A stretch of DNA of 64,000 nucleotides. Source: Gammaproteobacteria bacterium. GTDB taxonomy: Bacteria; Pseudomonadota; Gammaproteobacteria; Chromatiales; Chromatiaceae. The notes under the pieces were generated by a model. It was not told the origin of the DNA and ran no database searches. It worked only from the letters and a program-made list of their open reading frames with translations. The DNA lies in NCBI GenBank assembly GCA_009929855.1, contig RZZN01000006.1, forward strand, positions 30,117-94,116, read 5' to 3'. Below, piece by piece: positions 52,239 to 62,617 of this stretch (positions are counted from its first letter, which is position 1; every line of letters begins with the position of its first letter). The translations under genes and the position numbers were made by a program.

Positions 52239-52438
52239 ATTTTAGTCGGAGCTAATATGCACTCCGGCAATCCAGCCAGTCGGGTCTTGGCCAGATCATC
52301 AGGGAGCAGGTGTCGCAACGGTCGGCAGGTCACGAGGACAACACAGGCACAGACCTGATCGAGAGCGCGCATCGGTTGCGATGCGTCTGGTTGACCAAGC
52401 ACTCACCGAACAATCCTCGCGGTCCGCAGGTCACGACA

Positions 52439-53851
52439 ATGGAGCTCATCGGTCTCTATCCCACCTGGTTCGAGCCTATGGTGGGCAGCGGTTGGATCGT
52501 TGGCATCATCGCCACCATCCATGTGCTCGCCTCACATACCTCGGTCGGGGCGGCGATCTTCTTCGCCGCGCTCGCCACCATCGCCTATCGTCGCAATCAG
52601 CCCGAGCTGCTCGACTTCATCAAGCGCTATGGTCTGTTTCTACTCATCTTCTCCTACGTCATCGGCTCCATCACCGGACCTGGAATCTGGTTCTCGACCA
52701 CGGTGGCCAGTCCACGTGGAATCTCGGCGCTCATCCACAGTTTCGTATGGAAGTGGGCCGCCGAGTGGGTTTTCTTCGTCATCGAGGTGGTCGGTGTCTA
52801 TCTGATCGTCTATCTGGTCGGCCGGGTCGACCAGCGCACCCATCTGCGCATCACCATCATCTTCGGGCTCGCCGCCTATGCCACCATGCTGGTCATCATC
52901 GGGATCCTGTCGTTCATGATGTGGCCCGGCAAGGAGGCATGGTTCGAGCAAGGCGGCTATCTCTACGGCTTCTACGGCGCCAACACCTTCGCGCAGCTGG
53001 CTATGCGCACCGCCTTCATGTTCACCATGACCGCGGTGGTCGGCGGGATCGTCGCCGGCTCGATCCAGGATCCGGCCTTCAAGCGCGACATGGTGCGCCG
53101 TCTCGCCTGGCTCGGCATCGTCTCGAGCATCGCCGGGGCGGCCATCCTCTTCTGGTATGTCAATACCCTGCCCGAATATGCCCACCTGGTGATGGAGAAT
53201 CGTCTGCCCGAATATTTCCTGCCAGCCATGCTCGGCGTGCTCGGCGGCATCCTGGTCTATTTTCTCTTCACCCTGGCCATGCCACGTCGACTCGTCCCGG
53301 CACTCGCCGGTGTGATGGCGCTCGCCATCCTGGTGTTCGGGCTATGGCCCGGCGAGGTCGCGCGCGAATCCATCCGCAAGCCCTATGTCGCCGGACAGTA
53401 CGTCTATTCCAATCAGGTGATCGCGCGCGATGTGCCCGGCATGGGCATCTCCTCCGAGATCCCGCTCCTGGAGGAGCAGGGTTTTCTCAAGACCCATGTC
53501 TTCATCCCGGATGAGCTGCGCGAGGTGACGCCCGCGAATGCCGAGCGCGTCGGCCATGCATTGGCGCTGGTGGCCTGCTCCAATTGTCACTCACTGACCC
53601 ACACCGGCATGCGGCCATTGGCCCATTATTTCGGCGGCAACACCGACATCGACGACATCAAGGTCTATCTGCAGGGCGCACTGGCGACCGGCAATACGCT
53701 CTACATGCCCAAGATCCCCTTGACCGACGCAGAGGCCGAGGCACTGGCGGTCTATCTGGCCAACCTGGCCGACCCCAGAGTCGCCGAGCGCTATGCCGCG
53801 CGCCATCAGGGACTCGCCGCGGCCGACGCGCCGCACAGCCACCTGGAGTGA
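52439..53851 (+). CDS. CydA-superfamily-like polytopic membrane protein fused to C-terminal monoheme cytochrome c domain
   Basis: IATIHVLASHTSVGAAIFFAALATIAYRR, FSYVIGSITGPGIWFSTTVASPRG, WKWAAEWVFFVIEVVGVYLI; C-terminal CSNCH heme c motif with downstream MPKIPLTDAEAEALAVYLANL. Confidence 0.8.
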   Translation: MELIGLYPTWFEPMVGSGWIVGIIATIHVLASHTSVGAAIFFAALATIAYRRNQPELLDFIKRYGLFLLIFSYVIGSITGPGIWFSTTVASPRGISALIHSFVWKWAAEWVFFVIEVVGVYLIVYLVGRVDQRTHLRITIIFGLAAYATMLVIIGILSFMMWPGKEAWFEQGGYLYGFYGANTFAQLAMRTAFMFTMTAVVGGIVAGSIQDPAFKRDMVRRLAWLGIVSSIAGAAILFWYVNTLPEYAHLVMENRLPEYFLPAMLGVLGGILVYFLFTLAMPRRLVPALAGVMALAILVFGLWPGEVARESIRKPYVAGQYVYSNQVIARDVPGMGISSEIPLLEEQGFLKTHVFIPDELREVTPANAERVGHALALVACSNCHSLTHTGMRPLAHYFGGNTDIDDIKVYLQGALATGNTLYMPKIPLTDAEAEALAVYLANLADPRVAERYAARHQGLAAADAPHSHLE

Positions 53852-55086
53852 TGACCGTGGATGCACTCACACTCAATGCACTCAAAGACGTCGCCGGCGT
53901 GCCCTCGCACCCGCTGATCTTCCTGATCCTCGGCGTCGTCACCTTCACCCTGCACATGGTCTCGGTCCAGGTCATGCTGGGGGCGGCGGGGCTGACCATC
54001 TGGGGCGCCTTCAGCCGAGATCGGCACTGGCGTCGACTCGCCCAGTCCATGCTCTTGACCGCCAAGATCGCGGTCTCGATCGCGATCGTGCTCGGGGTCG
54101 CGCCACTGCTGTTCGTACAGGTCATCTACGACCCCTTCTGGTATGTCTCTAACGTCCTCTCGGCCTGGTGGGTGATCGGTTTCATCGTCATCCTGATCTT
54201 CGGCTATCTCCTGATCTACGTCTTCTACGGCCTCAACCATCATCTGGCGACCGAGAAGACCCGCTGCCCCGGCTCGATGATCCTGTCACTACTCCTGCTG
54301 CTGGTGGTCGGATTCATCATGCACGTGCTGGTGCAGCAGATGCTCTCGCCCGATCTCTGGATGAGCTGGTACGCGCCCGCAGGGGCGATCGACGCCTCCG
54401 GCACCGGTCTGCACGACTATGACCTCTTTCGCTTCGCCTTTTTCGTGAGTCTCTCGACCCTGGTGATCGGGGCCTGGCTGATCGCCTACCGACGCTATGT
54501 CGGGCAGCGCGCGGATGCCCGCGAGCTCGCCGGCTATCTCGACTGGGTGCGAACACTGGCGGTGCGCCTGAGTCTCATCGGTGGTCTGGTCTCGCTTCTG
54601 CTCGGCCTGGCCTGGCTGATGACCCTGCCCGAGCGCCATGCCGCGGCCATCCCGGTGGTGCTCTCGCTGATCGCCATGACGGCGATCCTGATCATGGCCA
54701 TCGCCCCCTCGCTGCTCGGCAAGCGGCTCGAGAGCGCGGCACTCGGCTATGGCGTGATGGGTCTGACGACCTTGGCGATCCTCCTGACCGCGGTGGCGCG
54801 CGAGGCACTGCGCTGGAACATCCTTCAGGGGATCTTCGGCTACGCCCCGCTCGACTATCGGATCAACATGGACTGGTACAGTACCGGGCTCTTTTTCGCG
54901 ACCTTCCTGATCGTTGGTGGACTCACCCTAGGCTATTACCTCGGGGTCGCCTGGAAGTCAGGTCAGAGCGCCGGCGTCTATACCCCGTCACCGGCCCTCG
55001 ACCGTCTGGGCACGCTCTCGATCAGCGTGCTGGTGCTGTGGATCATCCACTTCTTCGCCGTGGGCTTCTGGATCTGGATGCAATAG
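53851..55086 (+). CDS. Polytopic membrane protein, partner subunit of the upstream gene
   Basis: ATGA overlap with upstream gene; multiple TM segments with conserved-looking His (FTLHMVSVQVML, GLNHHLATEK, FIMHVLVQQM). Confidence 0.8.
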   Translation: MTVDALTLNALKDVAGVPSHPLIFLILGVVTFTLHMVSVQVMLGAAGLTIWGAFSRDRHWRRLAQSMLLTAKIAVSIAIVLGVAPLLFVQVIYDPFWYVSNVLSAWWVIGFIVILIFGYLLIYVFYGLNHHLATEKTRCPGSMILSLLLLLVVGFIMHVLVQQMLSPDLWMSWYAPAGAIDASGTGLHDYDLFRFAFFVSLSTLVIGAWLIAYRRYVGQRADARELAGYLDWVRTLAVRLSLIGGLVSLLLGLAWLMTLPERHAAAIPVVLSLIAMTAILIMAIAPSLLGKRLESAALGYGVMGLTTLAILLTAVAREALRWNILQGIFGYAPLDYRINMDWYSTGLFFATFLIVGGLTLGYYLGVAWKSGQSAGVYTPSPALDRLGTLSISVLVLWIIHFFAVGFWIWMQ

Positions 55087-55096
55087 GAGCAAGGTC

Positions 55097-55462
55097 ATGT
55101 CGATCAACCATCTGCTGCCCAACAGACACTGGCTCATGCTCCTGGCCCTGACCTCGACCCTGGTCTCCAGCGGGCTCCAGGCCGAGACACCGATTGGAGC
55201 GGACGCGGCGATCGCCGCGCCGGAGACGCTCGCCCATCCCTGCGCCGGCTGTCACGGCACCAACGGCTGGATCGACGACTCGGCCTTCATGCCGCTGGCC
55301 GGGATGCCAGAGTCGATCTTCATCGAGACCATGCTCGATTTTCGCGAGGAGCGACGCGCCTCGACCCTGATGGGGATGGTGGCCCAGGGCTACTCGGACG
55401 CGGAGATCCAGGCCATGGCCAGATTCTTTGTCAACCAACCGAGTGAGGGGACATCACGATGA
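55097..55462 (+). CDS. Exported monoheme cytochrome c (FCSD cytochrome subunit/SoxE-like position)
   Basis: Signal peptide; CAGCH; AFMPLAGMPESIFIETMLDFREERRASTLMGMVAQGYSDAEIQAMARFF. Confidence 0.85.
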   Translation: MSINHLLPNRHWLMLLALTSTLVSSGLQAETPIGADAAIAAPETLAHPCAGCHGTNGWIDDSAFMPLAGMPESIFIETMLDFREERRASTLMGMVAQGYSDAEIQAMARFFVNQPSEGTSR

Positions 55463-56790
55463 AACGGCGTGAATTTCTGTCACTCGCCGGGGCGCTGGCG
55501 GCGGGGACCATGCTGCCGCTCGGCGGCGCGCGCGGCGCCACTGGCGCGCACGTGGTCATCCTCGGTGGTGGCGTGGGCGGAGCCACCGCGGCCAAGTATC
55601 TGCGTCTCATGGACCCTGCCATTCGGGTCACGATCGTGGAGAAGGAGCGCCGCTATCTGCGCCCCTATGGCTCATCCGAGGTCATCACCGGCCATGTCGG
55701 CTTGAGCGACCTGGAGATCGACTACACGCCACTGCAATCCAAGTATGGTGTCACCTTCGTCTTCGACGAGGCGGTGGGTTTCGATCCAATCGCCCAGCGG
55801 CTCGCACTCAAGGGCGGCGAGTCTCTGAGCTACGACCGCCTGATCGTCTCACCCGGGATCCAACTGCTCTACGACCAGATCGAGGGCCATTCGGAGGCGC
55901 TGGCGAAGGCACGCTTCCCCGCGGCCTGGATCCCCGGATCCCAGACCCAGCTGCTGCGCAATCAGCTCGAGTCGATGCCGCAGGGTGGCACCTTCGCGAT
56001 CGTCGCACCGCCGAATCCATTCCGCTGCCCGCCCGGACCCTATGAGCGCGGCGCGCTGGTGGCCGAATGGTGTCAACGGCACAACCCGCGCGCGAAGATC
56101 CTGATCCTGGATCCACGCAACAGCTTTGTCACCGATCAGAGCATGATGCTCGGCTGGAATCGGCTCTATGGCTTCAACATCCCGCTGGAGTTCATGGCCG
56201 ACATGCCCGATGACGTGCAGACCCACGCCAATCCGGGCCTGATCGAATGGATCCGCCAGCAGGACGGCGGCACCCTGATCAGTCTGGACGCCGGGTCCAA
56301 GGCGCTCGAGACCGAGGGTGGACGGGTCAGCGCCGATGTCATCAACATCATCCCGCCGATGCGTGCCGGGGCGATCGCCGAGGCCATGGGGCTCACCGAT
56401 GCGAGCGGCTTCTGCCCGATCGATCCCATGACCTTCGAGTCACGTCTGCAACCCAAGGTGCATGTCATCGGGGACGCCTGCATCGCCGACCAGATGCCGA
56501 AATCCGGTTACGCGGCGAACAATCAGGCCAAGGTGACCGCGCGCGCGCTGGTGGATCTGTTCGCCGGTCGCGAGCCCGGCCCGCCCTCCTGGCAGAACAC
56601 CTGCTATGCCCTGGCCGGCTCGGAGTATGGGCTCTTCGTGGCCGCCGTCTATCGACTCCAGGACGGGCGCATCACCGCCCATCCAGGCGTGCGCTTTCAG
56701 TCACTCGACGCCACGCCGGCACAGATCAGACTGGGGGCCGTGTATCAGCAAAACTGGCTGGCCTCATTCACCGAGGATTGTTTCGCATGA
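55459..56790 (+). CDS. fccB: FCSD/SoxF-like flavoprotein subunit (sulfide dehydrogenase family)
   Basis: Tat-like signal KRREFLSLAGALAAG; Rossmann HVVILGGGVGGATAAKYLRLMDP; CPPGPYERG; AGREPGPPSWQNTCYAL; ATGA overlap with upstream cytochrome. Confidence 0.92.
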   Translation: MKRREFLSLAGALAAGTMLPLGGARGATGAHVVILGGGVGGATAAKYLRLMDPAIRVTIVEKERRYLRPYGSSEVITGHVGLSDLEIDYTPLQSKYGVTFVFDEAVGFDPIAQRLALKGGESLSYDRLIVSPGIQLLYDQIEGHSEALAKARFPAAWIPGSQTQLLRNQLESMPQGGTFAIVAPPNPFRCPPGPYERGALVAEWCQRHNPRAKILILDPRNSFVTDQSMMLGWNRLYGFNIPLEFMADMPDDVQTHANPGLIEWIRQQDGGTLISLDAGSKALETEGGRVSADVINIIPPMRAGAIAEAMGLTDASGFCPIDPMTFESRLQPKVHVIGDACIADQMPKSGYAANNQAKVTARALVDLFAGREPGPPSWQNTCYALAGSEYGLFVAAVYRLQDGRITAHPGVRFQSLDATPAQIRLGAVYQQNWLASFTEDCFA

Positions 56791-57497
56791 AGACCATTGC
56801 GACCACGCTGATACTCTTGATGGGCGGAGCGCTCGCGAGCTGGTCACCGCAAGCCGCCGAGACCCGTGCGCCCGCCGCCGATTGGACCCCCGCGGCCCTG
56901 TCGGCGACACTCGCGGCCATGCCCGAGGGTGACGCGGCTCGCGGCCAGCTGCTGCATCGGGAGTGGATGTGCGACTCCTGCCATGGCGCGGCGGGTATCG
57001 CCCCCACGGCCAACTGGCCGAGCCTGGCCGGCCAGAAGGCCGATTACACCTACAAGATCCTGCTCGACTATCTCGCCGAGCGCCGCAACGAGGATCGGCG
57101 CAGCGAGTTGATGATCGCGCTGATGCCCATGCTCTCCGATCAGGACATGGCCGATCTCGCGGTCTTCTACGAGGGCTTGACCCCATCCGCGGTCGACCCG
57201 ATCCTGCGTGCCGACGACACGGCCGACCTCGCGCACGCCGCCGCGCTGGCGCGCAAGGGCGATCGCTCCCGTCTGATCACGCCCTGTGCCTCCTGTCATG
57301 GTCGTCATGGTCAAGGCGGCATCCATGCCGCCCCGGCCTTGGCCGGTCAGATGCCGATCGCCTTCACGCGCACCATGAATGCGTACAAATCGGGGCTGCG
57401 TGACAACGATGTGAAGGCATCCATGTCGCAGTTCGCGCGCAAGCTCACGGATGAGGAGATCCATGATCTGGCGACCTATTACGCCAGGATGGATTGA
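56787..57497 (+). CDS. Exported diheme cytochrome c (c4-like)
   Basis: Signal peptide; two CXXCH motifs (CDSCH, CASCH); start overlaps fccB stop. Confidence 0.9.
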   Translation: MKTIATTLILLMGGALASWSPQAAETRAPAADWTPAALSATLAAMPEGDAARGQLLHREWMCDSCHGAAGIAPTANWPSLAGQKADYTYKILLDYLAERRNEDRRSELMIALMPMLSDQDMADLAVFYEGLTPSAVDPILRADDTADLAHAAALARKGDRSRLITPCASCHGRHGQGGIHAAPALAGQMPIAFTRTMNAYKSGLRDNDVKASMSQFARKLTDEEIHDLATYYARMD

Positions 57498-57594
57498 CCT
57501 CCCAGCACCGGATCGGCCAGCCCGCAGGCGACAGGCATCGCGACGGGTTGGCCGCTGCGACCCAAAGGCGGCATGTCGACTCGATGCGTGACTT

Positions 57595-58302
57595 ATGATC
57601 TCGGACCCTCGACTGTGCCAGCAGATCCTCGACACCTGTCCCTTCCTCGCGGCAGCACCGCCTGACTTTCACAGCACATTCTTTGCGAGCACCCGGCTGA
57701 TCGCACTGCCCGCCGCACAGCGCATCTGTCGAGACGGCGCGCATTGCGAGATCCTGCCCCTGATCCTGAGCGGCGTTGGACGGGTCTACAAACTGGGTGA
57801 AAACGGCCGAGAGATCACGCTCTATCGCCTGAGCCCGGGCGAGAGCTGTGTCATCACCGCCTCCTGCATCCTCAGCGATCGGGCATTTCCAGCCGATGCC
57901 GTCACCGAGACACCCGTCCGGGCAGTGGCGGTGAGTCCAGCGACGATGCGGGACTGGATGGCCAGGGTCGAGCCGTGGCGACGCTATATCTTCGGCCTGC
58001 TGGCCGAGCGCTTGCATGATGTGTTTGGCGTACTCGACGCCGTGCTCTTCCAACGTATCGACCAACGGCTCATCGCGCTGCTGTTGGAGAGGCACCAGAG
58101 CGCACCGGATCGCATCATCCACACGACCCACCAGTCGCTCGCGGCCGATCTAGGCTCGGCGCGCGAGGTGGTCAGCCGCGTGCTCAAAGGATTGGAGGGA
58201 CTCGGCCTGCTGCGGCTCGGTCGCGGACAGATCCTGCTGCTGGATCGAGCAGGTTTGGAGCGTCATGCACACGAGCGCAGTGCACACCCGCACGATGAGT
58301 GA
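57595..58302 (+). CDS. Crp/Fnr-family transcriptional regulator
   Basis: cNMP-binding-like N-terminus with Cys-containing segments (CQQILDTC, CRDGAHC, GESCVITASCIL); HTH SLAADLGSAREVVSRVLKGLEGLGLLRLGRGQILLLD. Confidence 0.92.
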   Translation: MISDPRLCQQILDTCPFLAAAPPDFHSTFFASTRLIALPAAQRICRDGAHCEILPLILSGVGRVYKLGENGREITLYRLSPGESCVITASCILSDRAFPADAVTETPVRAVAVSPATMRDWMARVEPWRRYIFGLLAERLHDVFGVLDAVLFQRIDQRLIALLLERHQSAPDRIIHTTHQSLAADLGSAREVVSRVLKGLEGLGLLRLGRGQILLLDRAGLERHAHERSAHPHDE

Positions 58303-60311: not shown

Positions 60312-60962
60312 CTAGACCGGCATGCTGGGCACATGTTCTGGCACCTCGAGCGCCGCCTCAGTCGCGGCCAGCACCGCATCGACACTCACGCCGGGCGCGA
60401 CCTCTTGCAGACGCAGACGGCCCGCGACGACAGCGATGACGGCCATCTCGGTGACGATGAGATCGACCGGCCTCAACGAGGTCAAGGGCAGGCTGCACTT
60501 GGACACGATCTTGGGCTTGCCCTTGGCCGTGTGCTGCATGGCAACCACCACCTGCTTGGCACCCGTGACCAGGTCCATGGCCCCACCCATGCCCGGCACC
60601 AGCTTGCCCGGAATCATCCAGTTGGACAGATGCCCGCCGCCGTCGACCTGCAGGCCACCCAGGACGGTCATGTCGACATGACCGCCCCGCATCAGACCAA
60701 AGGAGAAGGCGCTATCGAAGGTGCAGGCCCCGGGCAGCGCTGACACCGCCTGCCCGCCGGCATCGGTGAGTTTCGGATGCGCAAAGCCCGGCTCGGGGAC
60801 GGGGCCCGTGCCGATCAGCCCGTTCTCGGATTGAAAGAAGACGTCGATCCCCGCAGGCACATGATTGGCGACCAGGGTCGGGATACCGATGCCCAAATTC
60901 ACGAGCATGCCAGGTTGCAGCTCGAGGGCAACGCGCTTGGCGATGAGGGTTTGTGGATTCAT
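60312..60962 (-). CDS. 3-oxoacid/acyl-CoA transferase subunit B
   Basis: RVALELQPGMLVNLGIGIPTLVANHVP, FQSENGLIGTGPVPEPG, GGHVDMTVLGGLQVD. Confidence 0.94.
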   Translation of the reverse strand: MNPQTLIAKRVALELQPGMLVNLGIGIPTLVANHVPAGIDVFFQSENGLIGTGPVPEPGFAHPKLTDAGGQAVSALPGACTFDSAFSFGLMRGGHVDMTVLGGLQVDGGGHLSNWMIPGKLVPGMGGAMDLVTGAKQVVVAMQHTAKGKPKIVSKCSLPLTSLRPVDLIVTEMAVIAVVAGRLRLQEVAPGVSVDAVLAATEAALEVPEHVPSMPV

Positions 60963-60995
60963 TGGTACACGTGGAATTCGGGGATGCAGGCCGCT

Positions 60996-61643
60996 TCAAT
61001 GATTCGCGACGATGTGGTCGACCACCGCGGCGGGCGTCATGACATCGTCGGGCGAGATCACGCCCACCGGGACGATGTGATCGGCCGTGGCCATGACCCT
61101 GCTGCCGGCCATGGCGACGATGGGATTGAAATTGCGCGCCGTCAGCAGGTAGCGCAGGTTGCCGCTGTAGTCGGCGAACATGGCGTGCACCAGGGCAAAG
61201 TCGGCTGTCAGTGCCGTCTCCAACAGATAGTCCTTGCCATCGACCTCGATCCGACGCTTGCCCTCCTCGGCCAGGGTGCCGAGGCCAGTTGGCGTCAGCA
61301 CGCCGCCAAGCCCGAAGCCACCGCAGCGGATACGCTCCACCAGGCTGCCTTGAGGCACCAGCTCCACCTCCAGCGAGCCCGCATGCATCTGCTGCTGCGT
61401 CTCCGGGTTCAAGCCGATGTGACTCGTGATGACCTTGCGCACGCATCGGGCAGAGATGAGCTTGCCGACGCCCATACCAGGCCGGGCCGTGTCGTTCGTG
61501 ATGAGGGTCAGATCGCGTCTGCCCTGACGCACGAGCTCGTCGCAAAGGCGCTCCGGGGTGCCAACGCCGACGAAGCCACCGACGACGAGGCTCGCCCCGT
61601 CCGGGATGGCGGCGACCGCGTCTTCTAGCGATATGCGTTTCAT
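60996..61643 (-). CDS. 3-oxoacid/acyl-CoA transferase subunit A
   Basis: IPDGASLVVGGFVGVGTPERLCDELVRQG; VELVPQGSLVERIRCGGFGLGGVLTPTGLGT. Confidence 0.94.
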   Translation of the reverse strand: MKRISLEDAVAAIPDGASLVVGGFVGVGTPERLCDELVRQGRRDLTLITNDTARPGMGVGKLISARCVRKVITSHIGLNPETQQQMHAGSLEVELVPQGSLVERIRCGGFGLGGVLTPTGLGTLAEEGKRRIEVDGKDYLLETALTADFALVHAMFADYSGNLRYLLTARNFNPIVAMAGSRVMATADHIVPVGVISPDDVMTPAAVVDHIVANH

Positions 61644-61663
61644 GCTGGAGACCTCCGCGAAGC

Positions 61664-62617
61664 TCAACCGCCCAATGCCGCACCCAGCGCCGCGGACGCC
61701 TTGCGCCGGTGCGCCACCAAGGCGGCGACGGCACAGGAGGCAAGCCGGCTCTGCACCGTATCGGCGCGGCTGGTGAGCACGATGGGGACCCTGGCGCCGA
61801 GGACGATGCCCGCTGAGTCCGCGCTCATGAGGAAGGCCAAGCTCTTCGCGAGCAGGTTGCCGGCCTCCAGGTCGGGGGTCACCAGGATGTCGGCCTCACC
61901 GGCGACGGGTCCGGCGATGCCCTTGATGCGCGCGGCCTCTGGGTCGATGGCGTTGTCGAGCGCGAGGGGGCCGTCGAGCAGTGCGCCGGTGATCTGGCCG
62001 CGATCGGCCATCTTGCAGAGGGCGGCGGCCTCGATGGTCGACTGCAGCTTGGGATTGACCTTCTCCATCGCCGAGAGGACGGCGACCTTGGGCGTCTGGA
62101 TCCCGAGGCAGCGGGCGAGGTCGATGGCGTTCTGCACGATATCGACCTTCTCCTCCAGGGTCGGGAAGATGTTGATGGCCGCATCCGTGATGATCAGTGG
62201 CTTGGCGTGCCCGGGCACGTCCATGACGAAGCAATGGCTCAGGCGCCGGCCCGTGCGCAGACCGGTGTCGCGCCGGACCACGGCCGCGAGCAGCTCATCG
62301 GTGCTGAGCGAGCCCTTCATGAGTGCCTCGGCGCGGCCTGCGCGCACCAGGGCCACCGCCGTCTCGGCCGAGGCCTGGCTATGCTCGGTGTCCGCGATCT
62401 CGTAGACCGAGAGGTCGAGGCCGGCCGACTCCGCTGCGGCGTGGATCTTCTCGCGCGGTCCGACCAGCAGCGGTGTCATGATGCCTGCCCGCGCGGCATC
62501 GACAGCCCCGACCAGCGCGGCGCTATTGCAGGGATGGGCCACAGCGGTGACCACCGGCGGGATGGCCGTGACGGCCGCGACCAAGCGCTCGAAATGGCTG
62601 CACTGTGCTGCGCTCAT
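61664..62617 (-). CDS. Phosphate acetyl/butyryltransferase family protein
   Basis: ALMKGSLSTDELLAAVVRRDTGLRTGRRLSHCFVMDVP; ITDAAINIFPTLEEKVDIVQNAIDLA; TPDLEAGNLLAKSLAFLMSADSAGIVLGARVPIVLTSRAD. Confidence 0.93.
   Translation of the reverse strand: MSAAQCSHFERLVAAVTAIPPVVTAVAHPCNSAALVGAVDAARAGIMTPLLVGPREKIHAAAESAGLDLSVYEIADTEHSQASAETAVALVRAGRAEALMKGSLSTDELLAAVVRRDTGLRTGRRLSHCFVMDVPGHAKPLIITDAAINIFPTLEEKVDIVQNAIDLARCLGIQTPKVAVLSAMEKVNPKLQSTIEAAALCKMADRGQITGALLDGPLALDNAIDPEAARIKGIAGPVAGEADILVTPDLEAGNLLAKSLAFLMSADSAGIVLGARVPIVLTSRADTVQSRLASCAVAALVAHRRKASAALGAALGG

Follow-up and report, generated by a model that had tools for sequence, protein, structure and literature searches.

A conserved gene cassette linking flavocytochrome c sulfide dehydrogenase with a putative cytochrome c-fed bd-family oxidase

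The 64,000-nucleotide stretch of contig RZZN01000006.1 analysed here (assembly GCA_009929855.1, Chromatiaceae; hereafter the window) carries at positions 52439-57497 of the + strand a five-gene cassette, in which both subunits of flavocytochrome c sulfide dehydrogenase (FCSD) are encoded together with a cytochrome c4-like protein and a pair of membrane proteins related to cytochrome bd oxidases. This cassette is probably a dedicated branch from the periplasm to oxygen for sulfide (probability about 0.6), in which electrons would run from sulfide through the flavin adenine dinucleotide (FAD) of FccB, the haem c of FccA, the c4-like protein, and the haem c and then the b haems of gene 1 to O2. 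The novelty appears to lie in a stable association of an OR-C-type module with FCSD and cytochrome c4; the parts come from known families, and the linked set appears to be undescribed. A literature search brought up no account of FCSD being linked to a pair of bd-like genes; Murali et al. (2021) lay outside that search, and an earlier mention there is possible.

The five open reading frames all lie on the + strand at the places given by the original prediction, which was made from the DNA alone, and are tightly packed, with start/stop overlaps at 53851, 55459 and 56787:

52439-53851, + strand: gene 1, 470 aa, CydA-like membrane subunit with a C-terminal haem-c domain, putative OR-C-type catalytic subunit
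53576..53590, + strand: CSNCH haem-c attachment site of gene 1 (C380-H384), identified in the sequence and conserved in 38/38 homologues
53851-55086, + strand: gene 2, 411 aa, second bd-superfamily membrane subunit, paralogue of gene 1
55097-55462, + strand: gene 3, 121 aa, exported monohaem cytochrome c, FccA-type subunit of FCSD
55459-56790, + strand: gene 4 (FccB), 443 aa, exported FAD subunit of FCSD with a twin-arginine translocation (Tat) signal
56787-57497, + strand: gene 5, 236 aa, exported dihaem cytochrome c, cytochrome c4-like

Gene 1 starts with the ATG at 52439, the residue at which its homologues also begin; a longer open reading frame from a GTG at 52310 has no such support. CXXCH motifs number one in gene 1, near the C-terminus, none in gene 2, one in gene 3 and two in gene 5. 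These counts, together with the FCSD identity of gene 4, bear out the predicted cofactor set of one FAD and four c-type haems.

The membrane pair

Gene 1 matches the Pfam family Cyt_bd_oxida_I below the cut-off (E = 0.0015), and gene 2, which has no sequence match in Pfam, NCBIfam, PHROG or PDB, is placed solely by structure and by paralogy with gene 1. In AlphaFold models built from 35-row alignments, gene 1, with 8 predicted transmembrane (TM) helices, has a predicted local distance difference test score (pLDDT) of 80, falling below 60 near residues 90-110 and 310-330, and gene 2, with 10 TM helices in the model, has a pLDDT of 92.7. CydA chains are the top solved-structure matches for both (Z 21-25). 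The CydA-type chain 7ose_A is matched by gene 1 over 307 residues at 3.7 Å (VIA Z 23.6) and by gene 2 over 339 residues at 4.0 Å (VIA Z 25.1), while gene 2 also matches CydB (6rko_B, Z 22.0) and Foldseek pairs gene 1 with 9r2g_A (E = 3e-5). The next family comprises the membrane subunits of alternative complex III (Z 15-17), and the remaining fold-library matches, under Z 8, were discarded as ordinary helical-bundle noise. Profile comparison with hhalign relates gene 1 to gene 2 with a probability of 93% (E = 2.9e-7); against canonical CydA the gene 1 profile reaches a probability of 59% (E = 9e-5) and that of gene 2 gives no match. On these models and comparisons, genes 1 and 2 are paralogues with the cytochrome bd-superfamily fold, and the identity of the pair is settled by structure, although Pfam registers gene 1 only marginally and gene 2 not at all. 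The search for CydA matches by which the membrane subunits might have lost their predicted place in the CydA superfamily thus left it standing.

In bd oxidases of the Escherichia coli type, haem d is ligated by His19 of CydA, next to which lies Glu99, haem b595 is bound by Glu445, and His186 and Met393 ligate the quinol-side haem b558 (PMC8585947, PMC6853902). Among 38 homologues over which residue conservation was counted, H28, E109, E306, R309, C380, C383, H384 and M423 of gene 1 are invariant, and at the position of E116 37 have Glu and the remaining one has Asp. H28, E109 and E116 can be paired by motif with His19, Glu99 and Glu107 of CydA, and the spacing of 7 between E109 and E116 equals that between Glu101 and Glu108 of the Geobacillus enzyme (PMC6853902). 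The invariant E306-x-x-R309-E310 lies near the place expected for Glu445, a location that is approximate, being read from structural-alignment ends alone. The predicted C-terminal haem-c domain is supported by the CSNCH site, with M423 as the invariant candidate for the axial Met, and the loop charges of gene 1 obey the positive-inside rule with this domain on the predicted periplasmic side. At the position of the Q-loop, between TM6 and TM7, gene 1 has about 20 residues (241-261), and the Q-loop is absent; the His186 column is occupied by Gln in 31/38 homologues, and no conserved GRQPW-Met region (the Met393 side) is present in the gene 1 alignment. Gene 2 has an invariant TM1 histidine, H35, and near-invariant H158 and H188, and lacks the Glu99/Glu107 pair. 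As judged from these residues, gene 1 retains the O2-side ligands, has lost the quinol side and has acquired a haem c. Of the two acceptors originally proposed, O2 is the likelier because the Q-loop is gone, and quinone reduction by the membrane pair is less likely.

Residue 186 of gene 1 (window 52994-52996) is Gln in almost all FCSD-linked proteins, and His in the FCSD-less proteins of Campylobacterota, Achromatium and Methylosinus and also in one FCSD-linked row (L017); a haem ligand has perhaps been exchanged.

A C-terminal haem c on the CydA-like subunit and the absence of a quinol site are the hallmark of the OR-C branch of the bd superfamily, and the fused haem c of gene 1 is as expected for that branch. 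The C-terminal haem-c domain of gene 1 (C380/C383/H384, M423), its lost Q-loop and its retained O2-side ligands therefore indicate the OR-C family. The membrane pair fits OR-C, a putative cytochrome c-fed O2 reductase, the assignment being made by features and not by profile score. The original prediction of an undescribed membrane complex has accordingly to be narrowed: the pair fits an already named family, is not itself a new kind, and also occurs as a separate module without FCSD, and it is the linked set with FCSD that appears undescribed.

The superfamily comprises qOR, OR-C and OR-N, with a quinol site only in qOR (PMC13189123, citing Murali et al., 2021). For OR-N, a CydAA' pair fed by cytochrome c has been proposed (PMC10839748, with reference to the same study). 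With OR-C and OR-N relatives the cassette shares the bd-superfamily fold, the CydA-like active-site ligands, the lack of a quinol site and cytochrome c as the likely donor, and its two paralogous CydA-like subunits correspond to the CydAA' arrangement of OR-N in that proposal; a constant association with FCSD and c4, however, is not described in the literature searched. Canonical CydAB quinol oxidases (qOR) have the same fold and share the His19/Glu99/Glu107 equivalents of gene 1, but the cassette differs from them in the missing Q-loop, the non-conserved His186, the added haem c, a gene 2 that is a paralogue of gene 1, and a sequence similarity below the Pfam cut-off. The bd-like genes beside nitrite oxidoreductase (NXR) in Nitrospina and Nitrospira (PMC3578206) also encode a bd relative without a quinol site that adjoins a periplasmic dehydrogenase and small cytochromes c, but there the donor is NXR and the protein is of the OR-N type with 14 TM helices.

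Sulfide dehydrogenase and its cytochromes

FccB has both FCSD domains of Pfam (FCSD_central, E = 1e-37; FCSD-flav_bind, E = 1e-17), matches the solved FCSD flavoproteins 5n1t_A (E = 3e-108), 3vrd_B (5e-106) and 1fcd_A (7e-104), and begins with MKRREF, a Tat-like signal, as expected from the prediction of a Tat-exported FCSD flavoprotein. Cys190 (PFRCPPGPYE) and Cys341 (GDACIADQMPKS) are retained, both in conserved FCSD motifs. By its sequence, FccB is a genuine subunit of flavocytochrome c sulfide dehydrogenase, for which sulfide oxidation is predicted.

Both cytochromes c predicted to accompany FCSD are present, but their roles required correction. The best solved match of monohaem gene 3 is the FCSD cytochrome subunit 1fcd_C (E = 7.9e-17), followed by 5n1t_B (E = 8.5e-10), a short cytochrome from an entry that includes an FCSD flavin chain, and at almost every stand-alone fccB locus a gene 3 homologue directly precedes fccB; these findings identify gene 3 as FccA. 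Dihaem gene 5 was rejected as FccA because cytochrome c4 scores far better (6q2u_A, E = 6e-21; 8uf3_A, E = 2e-16) than the FCSD cytochrome (1fcd_C, E = 1.4e-9), and it is closest to cytochrome c4 as judged by best matches, not by a tree. Like the known FccAB enzymes (PDB 1fcd, 3vrd, 5n1t), the cassette FCSD has an FAD subunit with a monohaem cytochrome partner, both cysteines and a Tat-like signal; unlike theirs, its genes stand together with those for an oxidase-like membrane pair and a c4-like cytochrome, and its FccB lineage is separate from the host's other two FCSDs. Gene 5, like cytochrome c4 (PDB 6q2u, 8uf3, 1etp), is exported and has two haems and two domains, but it is about 236 aa long and lies within an FCSD/OR-C operon. 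Because c4 chains sit in the bc1-cbb3 supercomplex entries 8smr and 8snh, a carrier to an oxidase is the natural reading of the c4-like protein.

Conservation, electron route and alternatives

Among 79 homologous loci found with gene 1, all five genes occur in the same order and on the same strand in 59-60 (L061 leaves its contig inside fccB), a recurrence that puts the arrangement far beyond chance. Nine further loci are cut by a contig end, nine lack FCSD in the 5 kb or more of sequence that follows, and in one (L045) the cassette is rearranged, with the FCSD genes upstream. Adjacency of the membrane genes to FCSD, whose loss in relatives had been set beforehand as refuting the prediction, is therefore conserved. 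Most carriers are beta- and gammaproteobacterial sulfur oxidisers, including Thiothrix, Thiomonas, Thiobacillus, Thiomicrorhabdus, Hydrogenovibrio, Sulfurivirga, Tepidimonas, Hydrogenophaga and Chromatiaceae. Across 369 genomes sampled widely from the window's class, 10 have gene 1, and nine of these also have FCSD, as against 133/369 overall (one-sided Fisher p = 6e-4, an indicative value since related genomes are non-independent). In the FccB tree, from which two spurious, out-of-frame rows on a long branch (L019_cas2, L021_cas1) were disregarded, the cassette FccBs lie apart from stand-alone FccBs; the window's FccB falls in a set of 38-39 cassette rows, and the host's other two are among the stand-alone ones.

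The membrane pair is an autonomous module into which FCSD plugs, because it exists without FCSD in Campylobacterota (Sulfurimonas, Arcobacter), in some Thiobacillaceae/Gallionellaceae and on plasmids, one of them from Thermus. On the tree of gene 1, the main FCSD-linked group excludes the FCSD-less proteins from Campylobacterota, Achromatium, Thermus, Methylosinus and Agrobacterium, while an FCSD-less Thiobacillaceae/Gallionellaceae group branches near the base of that main group. Where FCSD is absent the pair is found by itself (Sulfurimonas, Arcobacter, the Thermus plasmid) or beside another cytochrome c, often with a two-component system (L081, L083, L085), and interchangeable periplasmic cytochrome partners of this kind would be the expected look of a cytochrome c-fed enzyme.

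Two of these plasmid loci have neighbours of their own. On plasmid NZ_AP022335.1 of the methanotroph Methylosinus (L083:8001-12943), the gene 1-gene 2 pair, a monohaem cytochrome and a two-component system, with no FCSD, sit between feoB-type iron genes and methanobactin genes. On plasmid NZ_AP025605.1 of Thermus thermophilus (L084:6235-8801), in another phylum, the pair adjoins genes for a DsrE-family protein and molybdopterin genes.

In the route that we infer from the observed gene set, folds, conserved motifs and conserved gene order, FCSD (FAD of FccB and haem c of FccA) would oxidise sulfide in the periplasm and hand its electrons to the dihaem c4-like protein, which would pass them, through putative protein contacts, to the haem-c domain fused to gene 1. 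From there they would enter the presumed b-type haems of gene 1, where O2 would be reduced to water, with gene 2 as a CydA'/CydB-like partner. No quinol would be used, and this cytochrome c-fed bd-family oxidase of the OR-C type, wired to FCSD, would contribute to the proton gradient by taking protons from the cytoplasm, without pumping. It is a tentative extension of this route, and on balance a doubtful one, that the five proteins assemble into a single stable sulfide:O2 oxidoreductase supercomplex bound to the membrane, where a bd-family enzyme with only b and c haems and no haem d is fed by FCSD via c4 and the fused haem c and bypasses the quinone pool.

Several points weigh against a dedicated branch to oxygen. 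The split of the FccB tree has an SH-aLRT (Shimodaira-Hasegawa-like approximate likelihood ratio test) support of only 77; the residues of gene 1 were mapped through an alignment that is approximate and a model in which confidence is moderate (pLDDT 80); and the window's genome, with three FCSDs, has one cbb3 oxidase, which gives FCSD electrons another outlet. We know of no characterised member of the OR-C branch, and of none that has been purified or demonstrated to reduce O2, and its electron donor has been a guess. OR-N relatives are likewise untested (PMC10839748).

The cbb3 oxidase also favours the strongest of the rival explanations, loose coupling, in which FCSD and the OR-C oxidase would be co-expressed for microoxic, sulfidic conditions and share the general cytochrome c pool with no dedicated wiring or complex. 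FCSD is classically soluble and reduces soluble cytochromes c, it is common without the pair, and the pair, as described above, occurs without FCSD. However, the strict order and tight packing across many genera, the retained c4-like protein and the distinct FccB lineage argue for a closer link than shared regulation, and loose coupling is considered unlikely.

Still poorer odds attach to a cytochrome c:quinone module that would send FCSD electrons into the quinone pool or reverse electron flow and not to O2, a role once proposed in similar form for the bd-like proteins of nitrite oxidisers (PMC3578206). The need of the window's genome, a Thiocapsa-like phototroph by locus matching, for reducing power would suit such a module, as would the fact that the pair distantly resembles, at Z 13-17, membrane subunits of alternative complex III and polysulfide reductase that are linked to quinone, but the Z scores to CydA are well above these, no known quinol-site motif is left, the active-site ligands kept are those on the O2 side, and most carriers are aerobic or microaerobic chemolithotrophs. 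A detoxifying terminal reductase that scavenges O2 under sulfide or reduces nitric oxide (NO), and is not energy-conserving, is highly improbable: a part in detoxifying O2 and NO is ascribed to canonical bd enzymes (cited in PMC10839748) and seven related loci have canonical CydA/CioA genes in the same ~19-kb stretch, but nothing in the cassette points to NO, and a role in energy metabolism agrees better with the wide spread in obligate sulfur chemolithoautotrophs (such as Thiomicrospira and Thiomicrorhabdus).

The usual scheme has electrons from FCSD entering an undefined cytochrome c pool; in about 60 sequenced loci a single, specific oxidase-like partner is genetically linked to them. For the OR-C branch, the cassette names a candidate physiological donor (FCSD/FccA with c4), sulfide as its substrate, and hosts that can be cultivated (Thiothrix, Thiomonas, Thiomicrorhabdus, Hydrogenovibrio, Tepidimonas), and the question of the OR-C donor is therefore directly testable.

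Host genome and neighbouring genes

No canonical CydA was found in the window's genome (G000). Its two further FCSD flavoprotein genes, on contigs C409 and C30 (L087 and L088), encode proteins divergent from the cassette FccB, with 46% and 40% identity. Gene 1 is present in only 2/55 relatives. The cassettes of other Chromatiaceae (L028, L025, L026) belong to a lineage different from that of the window (52439-57497), whose gene 1 is nearest to that of Thiothrix (79%), which suggests that the cassette entered the Chromatiaceae more than once, by repeated horizontal transfer.

No further subunit emerged among the recurrent neighbours, none of which is common to more than 14 loci. Most frequent among them is a PAS/sigma-54 activator (L040:15253-16590 and 13 other loci), which may be the regulator of the cassette in those 14 hosts. 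In the window, a photolyase gene lies upstream and a convergent CitMHS-type transporter gene downstream, and neither travels with the cassette. The Crp/Fnr regulator gene that had been noted does follow, 3' of the cassette at 57595-58302, but it was rejected as a member of the conserved unit, a homologue being found at just one other locus (L027, 39%). Further along, positions 60312-62617 of the - strand carry a CoA-transferase gene pair and a phosphate acetyl/butyryl transferase gene, a small separate cluster unrelated to the cassette.

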